Shown here: one piece after another, positions 46,009 through 47,261 of the stretch
Layout of the letters: each line of letters begins with the position of its first letter
How positions within the stretch are numbered: position 1 is the first letter of the stretch
Notes under the pieces: model-generated
Database searches by the model: none
Seen by the model: the letters and a program-made list of their open reading frames with translations, nothing else
Told to the model about the DNA's origin: nothing
Position numbers and translations under genes: made by a program
Source of the DNA: Anaeromassilibacillus sp. An250
Lineage (GTDB): Bacteria > Bacillota > Clostridia > Oscillospirales > Acutalibacteraceae
Reading direction: 5' to 3'
NCBI RefSeq assembly: GCF_002159845.1
Contig: NZ_NFJK01000017.1
Span: 1 to 64,000 of the forward strand
DNA: 64,000 nt

Positions 46009-46932
46009 TTAGAACATATCCTTCTTCCGAAGGATCAAATATGCAATCCCCATGCTTACAATGGCCAAAAGCAACGGGAACCAGAAAAACGGCAGCGGAA
46101 GCCCCTCGACATTCATCCCATAGAAACTGGAGATAACCGTCGGAATGGAGATGATCAGGGTGATGGAGGCCAAGACCTTCATCACGATGTTCAAGTTGTT
46201 GCTGATGACCGAGGCAAAGGCATCCATCGTGCCGGAAAGGATGTTCAAATAAATGCTGGACATCTCAATCGCCTGCCGGACCTCGATCAGCACATCTTCC
46301 AGCAGGTCCTGGTCTTCCTCATAAAGCTTCACAACGCGTCCGCGTGAAATTTTCTCAATGGTAATTTCACTGCCTTTTAGCGAAGAGGAGAAGTAGACCA
46401 AGGACTTCTCAATATCCAAAAGCTGAATCAGCTCAGAATTCTTCATGGATTTGCGCAGCTCACGCTCCACATGGCTGCTGAGTTTATCAATCTGCTTCAA
46501 ATACTGCAAATATTTTGTTGCAATCCGGAGCATCAGATGAAGGATAAAGCGCGTTTTCAGATTGGTCTGTACCCCTTTGACCGCCCCATCTGTAAACTCA
46601 TCCAGGACGGGGTTCCCCCTTGTACAGACGGTAATCACATTTTTTTCTGTGATAATGATGCCGAGCGGCGTGGTGGAATAGGTCACATTGTCGCCGGACG
46701 TTTCCGCCACCGGCATATCGATGATGACCAACGTGCTGTAATCTTCGGTATCAATATGCGAAGATTCCTCTTCGTCCATTGCGGCACGGAAGAAGTCCGG
46801 TTCAATCTGGAAATCTTCAATCAGGCCGCTAATCTCCGCATCGGTCGGGGCAATGCAGTTGATCCAGCAACCCGGTTCGCATGCCTCCAACTGAGTAATA
46901 TGTCCGTCAATCGTCTTGTAGTAGGACAGCAT
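46009..46932 (-). CDS. corA: CorA-family magnesium transporter
   Basis: A 307-residue pentameric channel subunit for Mg2+ (or Co2+). A long cytoplasmic funnel with coiled-coil helices is followed by two C-terminal helices, with the selectivity motif SSFYGMNVEGLPLP between them and a basic tail RKKDMF. I chose ATG 46932, nine bases after AAAGGAG; ATG 46941 is too close to that site. The first codons overlap the end of a short leader ORF in another frame. Confidence 0.94.
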   Translation of the reverse strand: MLSYYKTIDGHITQLEACEPGCWINCIAPTDAEISGLIEDFQIEPDFFRAAMDEEESSHIDTEDYSTLVIIDMPVAETSGDNVTYSTTPLGIIITEKNVITVCTRGNPVLDEFTDGAVKGVQTNLKTRFILHLMLRIATKYLQYLKQIDKLSSHVERELRKSMKNSELIQLLDIEKSLVYFSSSLKGSEITIEKISRGRVVKLYEEDQDLLEDVLIEVRQAIEMSSIYLNILSGTMDAFASVISNNLNIVMKVLASITLIISIPTVISSFYGMNVEGLPLPFFWFPLLLAIVSMGIAYLILRKKDMF

Positions 46933-46990
46933 TGCGTTCATCTCCTTTATTCTCTTTTTCTATGTGACTACATAAAGGGTCCGGTTTCAC
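46907..46990 (-). CDS. Leader peptide ORF (27 codons) before and overlapping corA
   Basis: GTG 46990 has a perfect GGGAGG seven bases upstream (47003-46998). The peptide starts MKPDPLCSH and is then charged (EKENKGDERN) to a TGA at 46909-46907, inside corA in another frame. The corA ribosome binding site lies within this ORF, so its translation should affect corA. The KPDP start resembles MEPDP of the enterobacterial MgtL leader, where alternating Pro and acidic residues make ribosomes fall off at low Mg2+. Function is inferred; only the ORF, its ribosome binding site and the overlap are seen. Confidence 0.5.
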   Translation of the reverse strand: MKPDPLCSHIEKENKGDERNAVLLQDD

Positions 46991-47022
46991 AATGCCACCT
47001 CCCAACGGGCGCAGGAATGCGC

Positions 47023-47049
47023 AAAAAAATGCGCGCGGATGTACGCGCG
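47023..47049 (-). terminator. Terminator-like hairpin in the corA leader (possible attenuator)
   Basis: CGCGCG pairs with CGCGCG around a six-base loop (47049-47032) and is followed two bases later by seven T on the minus strand (47029-47023). It lies between the promoter and the leader ORF. A GCGC before and after the T run could form an alternative pairing. Confidence 0.5.
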
Positions 47050-47076
47050 AACACTTTTTCTCTCGATAACAAATTC

Positions 47077-47104
47077 ATTATAGCACAAAAAGTGGAGATT
47101 TCAA
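47077..47104 (-). promoter_or_regulatory. corA promoter, extended -10
   Basis: Minus strand TTGAAA (47104-47099), 16 bases, TATAAT (47082-47077) preceded by TGC. Bases 47105-47216 hold nothing further that I can support. Confidence 0.7.
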
Positions 47105-47216
47105 GGGTGCGCAGCACATTTTGCGCATTATTTTCAGAAATTTATCCTGTAATGCCACACAGGGCCCAATTTGGCCTCAAATCATCTTTTTTCTATTCCA
47201 GTTTTGAATGGGCACG

Positions 47217-47243
47217 AAAAAAGCCCGGAATGTTCCGGGCTTT
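47217..47243 (-). terminator. Terminator after ftsZ
   Basis: AAAGCCCGGAA and TTCCGGGCTTT pair around a two-base loop, with TTTTTTC on the minus strand. It closes the dcw transcript. Confidence 0.88.
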
Positions 47244-47261
47244 AAGCGTCCTTATGTACGA

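Follow-up and report, generated by a model that had tools for sequence, protein, structure and literature searches.

A conserved Asp-Pro leader ORF pairs with the start of corA in a clostridium: a candidate translational attenuator

In Erm-type attenuators, whose leaders respond to antibiotics, alternative hairpins compete for the downstream ribosome binding site (RBS), and a ribosome halted on the leader ORF switches between them. Leaders of Mg2+ transporter genes are described here from excerpts of the papers cited. MgtL, the leader of mgtA in Salmonella and E. coli, has Glu2 and Asp4 in an EPDP motif and, when EttA is present, gives a toeprint that places Pro3 in the P site; drop-off on MgtL in low Mg2+ raises mgtA (PMC11282234). 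The Salmonella leader mgtQ, between mgtC and mgtB, has early acidic residues, and a ribosome on its region 1 lets the 2:3 pairing form, which frees the mgtB RBS (PMC8092293). Similarly, corL is a leader ORF of corA in Salmonella and E. coli that is expressed inversely to corA, acts via Rho and is reported to have a single Pro in its conserved start (PMC11552253), while the corA RNA motif is restricted to gammaproteobacteria (PMC6429828). In the M-box of M. tuberculosis, a small uORF and a translational platform are involved (PMC12810186). Finally, Asp-Pro stretches stall ribosomes of B. subtilis, and YfmR relieves these stalls (PMC11381351).

We analysed a stretch of 64,000 nucleotides (the window) from Anaeromassilibacillus sp. 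An250, in which corA has a leader ORF. Like MgtL, this leader is a short ORF directly before a Mg2+ transporter gene and has Pro-Asp-Pro at codons 3-5. The first-pass annotation of the window had likened the two leaders; the likeness holds for Pro3-Asp4-Pro5, which stand at the same positions, and fails at residue 2, which is Lys and not acidic. In the open-licence literature of PubMed Central, with subscription papers largely outside its scope, we found no such system for a Gram-positive corA.

The corA locus of An250

By inspection of the minus strand, the locus reads 5' to 3' as a promoter, a GC hairpin followed by T7, a strong Shine-Dalgarno (SD) sequence, a leader ORF with a GTG start, and corA. 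The putative promoter TTGAAA-16-TATAAT has an extended -10 element with TG before the -10 box (47077-47104) and comes from a scan that gave one site in 1.5 kb vs 2.0 expected, and is by itself not above chance; TATAAT-like boxes are visible upstream of the leader in many of the corA relatives whose upstream regions were inspected. The leader SD GGGAGGTGG (46995-47003) is extended and includes GGGAGG at 47003-46998. The leader ORF MKPDPLCSHIEKENKGDERNAVLLQDD (46907-46990) has 27 codons followed by TGA; its peptide begins MKPDPLCSHI, and the Pro3-Asp4-Pro5 codons (46976-46984) are the proposed site of pausing or drop-off. The ORF includes the corA SD AAAGGAG (46942-46948) and stops 26 nt within corA. 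The promoter, the hairpin with T7, GGGAGG, the 27-codon GTG ORF ending within corA and the internal corA RBS had all been named in the first-pass annotation, and all are present on this strand.

The terminator-like hairpin, which lies 5' of the leader ORF and which we regard as accessory, spans 47023-47059 (CGCGCG-TACATC-CGCGCG at 47049-47032, T7 tail at 47029-47023) and was assessed by scanning, folding and comparison. It had been proposed as an attenuator-like part of the corA leader device; among 63 upstream regions inspected by eye (63 of the best 80 loci) together with the window, this form occurs solely in the window and in its nearest relative (L035). We rejected the hairpin as the core of the device, as it is not conserved among the inspected relatives. 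Separately, by eye, each of the four species of the genus (the window, L035, L036 and L083) has a hairpin placed after the promoter and ahead of the leader; it comes in two unrelated forms with T-rich tails and may attenuate transcription within the genus. Further upstream, directly past ftsZ, the hairpin GCCCGGAACATTCCGGGC followed by T6 (47213-47245) resembles by eye an ftsZ terminator, which would keep the leader-corA transcript apart from ftsZ.

The annotated first ATG of corA (46941) adjoins the SD without spacing, and the conserved ATG is codon 4 (46932), 9 nt past AAAGGAG. A start at 46941 was rejected because of the zero SD spacing and because it is not conserved in relatives. Counted from the conserved Met4, corA (46009-46932) encodes a CorA-like Mg2+ transporter with the YGMN motif (PF01544, E 5.5e-53). 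The CorA protein (46009-46941) scores 110 bits vs a cut-off of 200.75 for the NCBIfam corA equivalog; being below this cut-off despite the strong Pfam match, this clostridial CorA group is divergent. A search of the An250 genome (76 contigs, estimated complete) found one CorA, no MgtE, no M-box, and 17 P-type ATPase matches with none above the MgtA cut-off.

Conservation of the leader start

A search through named genomes found 435 CorA relatives, from which the best 80 were kept; without L067, whose contig starts inside corA, and with the window added, 80 loci have upstream DNA. Asp-Pro is found at leader codons 4-5 in 74 of these 80 corA loci (drawn from the best 80 of 435 relatives plus the window), and the start is conserved in the same number. 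The remaining six have Arg-Pro (L060), Lys-Pro (L066), Gly-Pro (L089), Asp-His (L112), Asp-Tyr (L113) or no such leader (L081). In a strict test in which the window is not counted, an SD followed by a start codon and x-x-Asp-Pro is present in 72/79 corA upstream regions, vs 3/1390 random windows of the same loci and 1/309 regions upstream of other ORFs of at least 150 codons; misses are counted in both the 72/79 and the 74/80 figures. We conclude that the conservation of the leader ORF exceeds chance. In the related loci L060 (MKPRP) and L066 (MKPKP), a basic residue replaces Asp4, with the leader start and the pairing described below retained.

The codon table was made from 75 loci chosen by a pattern that requires codon 4 to encode Asp, Arg or Lys and codon 5 to encode Pro, and its figures for codons 4-5 are therefore partly built in; codon 3 was not a selection criterion. 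Codon 3 encodes Pro in 60/75 loci, with all four synonyms used (CCT, CCG, CCC and CCA), and it changes chiefly at the silent position, while the peptide drifts past codon 7. Left out of the 75 loci are L067, L043 (leader intact, SD replaced near a contig end), L081, L089, L112 and L113; because its contig starts inside corA and its leader is spurious, L067 was also omitted from the partner swaps relied on below. In the alignment that the first-pass annotation had called for, a GTG or ATG start, a strong SD and a (Pro)-Asp-Pro start are conserved across the family and the remaining peptide drifts; this outcome favours the reading given there.

The window's own leader DNA was matched by BLAST in 30/300 genomes of its family. 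The strict pattern GAGGTGG-N2..8-TGARNBCNGAYCC matched 13/394 genomes of the order (with corA in 12 cases and without it in L125) and gave six matches in 398 genomes of the phylum; two of these are from the window's genus, and the other four lie in loci that have no CorA match. It was rejected as a census because it is too stringent for counting.

Outside the family, we examined CorA loci from other families of the order and from one genome of another order, 35 in all, and found an upstream ORF with Asp-Pro at codons 4-5 in 22. Examples of these leader starts are MSPDP, MNPDP, MKSDP, MAGDP, MDGDP, MEGDP and MDTDP, and residue 2 is acidic in five of the 22 (L159, L162, L163, L164 and L165; MDGDP, MEGDP, MDTDP). 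By eye, six loci of other families have related starts (L132, L135, L143, L153, L155 and L166), and seven have no such leader (L139, L141, L142, L150, L157, L158 and L161). In the more distant leaders, Pro3 is replaced by Ser, Ala, Gly or Thr and Asp4-Pro5 is retained. In a second order of the same class, in which 60 genomes yielded 25 fetched corA loci, Asp-Pro at leader codons 4-5 occurs in 0/25.

RNA pairing and the modelled corA site

When the window leader is folded to minimum free energy, its start pairs with that of corA; this fold lies only 1.8 SD below shuffles (z -1.8). The outer helix, P1, joins the 5' arm AGGTGGCATTGTG (46988-47000), which comprises the end of the leader SD, the spacer and the start codon, to the 3' arm CGCAATGCTGTCCT (46923-46936) in the corA start region. 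Inside P1, an inner helix joins CCTTTAT (46972-46978), in leader codons 5-7, to ATAAAGG (46944-46950), which contains the corA SD. These arms were defined by folding and comparison. The pairing of the leader SD and start codon with a downstream segment is new beyond the first-pass annotation, as are the putative competing hairpins in relatives.

The 75 pattern-chosen loci fall into type A (28 loci including the window), in which the leader overlaps corA, and type B (47 loci). In type A, the AGGTGGCATTGTG leader segment pairs with the corA start region and, inside this pairing, codons 5-7 pair with the corA SD. In the 27-row alignment A1 (27/28 type A loci; L079 is identical to L078 there), 88.9% of cells are paired vs 38-60% when the arms are slid, with 95.7% for P1 and 77.8% for the inner helix. 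One P1 column pair changes from GC to AU in six rows; covariation is weak, with two double-change pairs vs 1.9 by shuffling, because the sequence is nearly invariant.

In type B, the P1 partner lies between the leader and corA, usually ~20-50 nt before the corA ATG, and the sequences vary freely, so that covariation can be read there. In the 25-row alignment A2 (25/47 type B loci; 22 with different spacing were dropped), P1 in fixed register is paired in 72.7% of cells vs 32-54% when slid, with 0/2000 permutations reaching this value. When P1 partners were swapped among all 47 loci, a test that ignores relatedness, the own partners gave -12.9 kcal/mol vs a permutation mean of -9.4, with 0/5000 as low; swaps restricted to relatives, within clusters of >75% CorA identity, gave 0/3000, and the reversed-sequence control 387/2000. 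For 23 further loci from other families, P1 gave 0/5000, with a reversed control that was also low (89/5000).

Type B relatives have a second helix, P2 (A2 columns 73-80 with 102-109), in which 83.5% of cells are paired vs 30-58% when slid and which has 27 double-change cells vs 11.7 after shuffling (0/500). The 3' arm of P2 may instead pair with the corA SD in a candidate helix, P3; P2 would leave the corA site free and P3 would mask it. In fixed register, P3 has no covariation (69.0% paired vs a shuffled mean of 68.1%). Because its arms are separated by stretches of variable length, a register-free partner swap was run, in which the own partners gave -13.3 vs -11.2 (0/5000 over all loci, again ignoring relatedness; 0/3000 within relatives); the reversed control was itself somewhat low (24/2000), and part of the P3 signal is thus base composition. 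P2 and the putative P3 were found in type B relatives and are absent in the window type. Judged by these alignments and swaps, P1 and P2 covary.

Using an equilibrium folding model that leaves aside pseudoknots and kinetics, we placed a ribosome footprint, from -14 to +15 relative to the P site, on each leader codon in turn and calculated what it costs to open the corA site. For the window, the model gives 11.2 kcal/mol for naked RNA, 6.3 with a ribosome at codon 4, 10.6 at codon 8 and 9.9 at codon 10. The predicted medians for type A (28 loci) are 12.9 kcal/mol naked, 7.1 at codon 4, 10.9 at codon 8 and 12.4 at codon 10; past codon 10, the leader ribosome itself occludes the corA site in most loci. 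For type B (47 loci), they are 9.5 kcal/mol naked, 7.1 at codon 4, 8.5 at codon 8, 9.7 at codon 10 and 10.6 at codon 14. The modelled gain exceeds 0.5 kcal/mol in 27/28 type A and 34/47 type B loci, and shuffling of the upstream sequence abolishes it (subtracting codon 4 from naked then gives set medians from -0.41 to 0.14). The 23 further loci were chosen for Asp-Pro, with L144 removed because it duplicates L127; here the gain has a median of 3.2 kcal/mol and is >0.5 in 19/23. The predicted gain is absent from 13/47 type B, 1/28 type A and 4/23 further loci. By this model, the corA site opens most under a ribosome at leader codons 1-5 and has closed again by codon 10, in the 23 further loci too.

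In family f162 of the second order, of which 11 genomes matched, an ORF of 10-12 codons with the start M-E/D/G-E/D-x-P (e.g. MEEGP, MDDGP, MEDLP) precedes corA in 9/9 fetched loci (L176, L178, L183, L185, L186, L190, L191, L198 and L199), these nine leaders having been selected after their sequences were viewed, and long overlapping hairpins around the corA SD follow. In family f32 of the same order, no such leader was seen by eye in 16 loci. For f162, the modelled medians for opening the corA site are 8.1 kcal/mol naked, 7.0 with a ribosome at codon 3 and 10.9 at codon 10; with a ribosome at the stop codon, the values are mixed. We treat the f162 leaders as a lead to a differently built relative of the same idea.

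Proposed mechanism, alternatives and known systems

We consider it nearly certain that the element, with its leader, P1 and P2 identified by comparison, is real and conserved, and quite likely that it controls corA translation via alternative pairing, the opening and closing of the corA site being modelled. We infer Asp-Pro pausing or drop-off and, through it, a Mg2+ input, which by analogy to MgtL we hold to be somewhat probable. As a whole, the explanation that we favour as the best, with reasonable though limited confidence, is a cis-acting translational attenuator of corA that is driven by Asp-Pro pausing or drop-off and works like MgtL or mgtQ.

In this proposal, P1 and the inner helix over the corA SD would fold the start regions of the leader and of corA together, so that corA translation from naked mRNA would be poor. 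A ribosome located at leader codons 1-5 would disrupt this fold and free the corA site; in type B relatives, opening of P1 would let P2 form, which would keep the corA-masking P3 open. Once a ribosome has passed Pro-Asp-Pro and runs on, the mask would re-form, and in the window the ribosome would then cross the corA start itself. The corA site would be most open if a ribosome stayed at codons 1-5 or if ribosomes kept loading there and falling off. CorA would therefore rise when ribosomes pause or drop off at Asp-Pro, which low Mg2+ would make likelier, as with MgtL, and would fall when ample Mg2+ lets the leader be translated smoothly. The window appears unusually compact in that one helix joins the leader start to the corA start, so that initiation on one would open the other. 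The position of Pro-Asp-Pro, the downstream Mg2+ channel and the early-ribosome optimum fit together, with the Mg2+ dependence suggested by analogy. However, one Asp flanked by Pro on both sides makes a weaker motif than EPDP, and Lys2 in the window, Arg4 or Lys4 in two loci and the single acidic residue of most leaders speak against a Mg2+ input.

Plain translational coupling, in which leader ribosomes just open the corA site without sensing and Asp-Pro is kept e.g. for a tuned speed of leader translation, would suit P1 and the opening model, which require no more than a ribosome at the leader start; moreover, the leader stop precedes the corA ATG by 14 to 22 nt in 17/47 type B loci, where terminating ribosomes could re-initiate. 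We nevertheless regard it as unlikely: the first five leader codons are retained while the rest drifts, with codon 3 varying mostly silently, leaders of other families also keep Asp-Pro, and the type A stop lies 26-131 nt within corA, too distant for ordinary re-initiation. Slow decoding of another kind at Pro or Asp-Pro, in which the leader would respond to Pro-tRNA charging, EF-P or an ABCF factor instead of Mg2+, has precedents in excerpts of two reports, as YfmR and EF-P act on Asp-Pro stalls in B. subtilis (PMC11381351) and Salmonella mgtP is described as a sensor of charged tRNA-Pro (PMC8092293). That the downstream gene is a Mg2+ channel in the loci examined, and that distant leaders lose Pro3 yet hold Asp4-Pro5, makes this reading doubtful, and we give it a lower probability than plain coupling.

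A riboswitch-like RNA that senses Mg2+ itself, with the peptide secondary, would draw on type B loci, where the P1 partner lies mostly within the P2 loop and P1 with that loop could form a Mg2+-dependent pseudoknot. This is improbable, since the window type has P1 without P2, the peptide start is the most constant part, and in most type B loci the few bases that separate the P1 partner from the 3' arm of P2 look insufficient for a full pseudoknot; in addition, the leader region matches no Rfam family. At gathering level, Rfam gave one tRNA only in the window, and in 13 relatives searched to E 1 it gave nothing at the corA leader, on which ground a known Mg2+ riboswitch or other riboswitch was rejected. 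A transcription attenuator, in which the GC hairpin with T7 governs read-through into corA, has the least to recommend it and seems very improbable: the scan does find its stem and T tract, with four such sites in the stretch vs 1.7 expected, and the hairpin is retained in L035, with a different hairpin at that place in L036 and L083, but it precedes the leader ORF, and its form is absent from the other inspected relatives, which retain the leader.

Returning to the Asp-Pro attenuator, we see an even chance that clostridial corA genes have independent Mg2+ sensors, in which a five-residue leader start destabilises the ribosome as Mg2+ falls and acts at translation. The same reading, held with equal reserve, would take x-Pro-Asp-Pro in Oscillospirales-type genomes and Glu/Asp-Glu/Asp-x-Pro in the second order as such starts, with pairing between the leader start and the corA start as the readout. 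It would amount to the principle of MgtL and mgtQ, arrived at independently in Gram-positives. If true, Mg2+ sensing by ribosome survival on an acidic or proline-containing start would be a recurrent solution and not an enterobacterial speciality; moreover, in An250 the sensor would serve what is apparently the only CorA-type channel, in a genome without MgtE, M-box or an above-threshold MgtA.

Compared with MgtL, which has Glu2, the window leader has no second acidic residue, and residue 2 is Lys, Asn or Ser in most loci. MgtL acts via Rho-dependent termination, whereas the corA leader structures point to translational control, and we detected no sequence link between the two beyond the motif, the likeness being limited to five residues. 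The leader resembles corL in being an ORF upstream of corA and differs from it in its Pro-Asp-Pro start; corL acts via Rho. Unlike the gammaproteobacterial corA RNA motif, it has no Rfam match. With the M-box (ykoK) it would share 5' control of Mg2+-related genes, although the constant part of the corA leader is a peptide start and not an aptamer, and the genome has no M-box. Unlike Erm leaders, the corA leader would presumably respond to how hard Asp-Pro is to translate in itself, and its own start lies within P1. mgtQ lies inside an operon and acts on mgtB, whereas the corA leader is a 5' leader whose segment 1 consists of its own SD with the start codon; in the window type, the 2:3 pairing is lacking. 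The type B relatives appear to show the 1:2 / 2:3 / 3:4 layout of mgtQ as excerpted, and, as in the four-segment attenuators of mgtQ and erm, the 1:2 pairing includes the leader.
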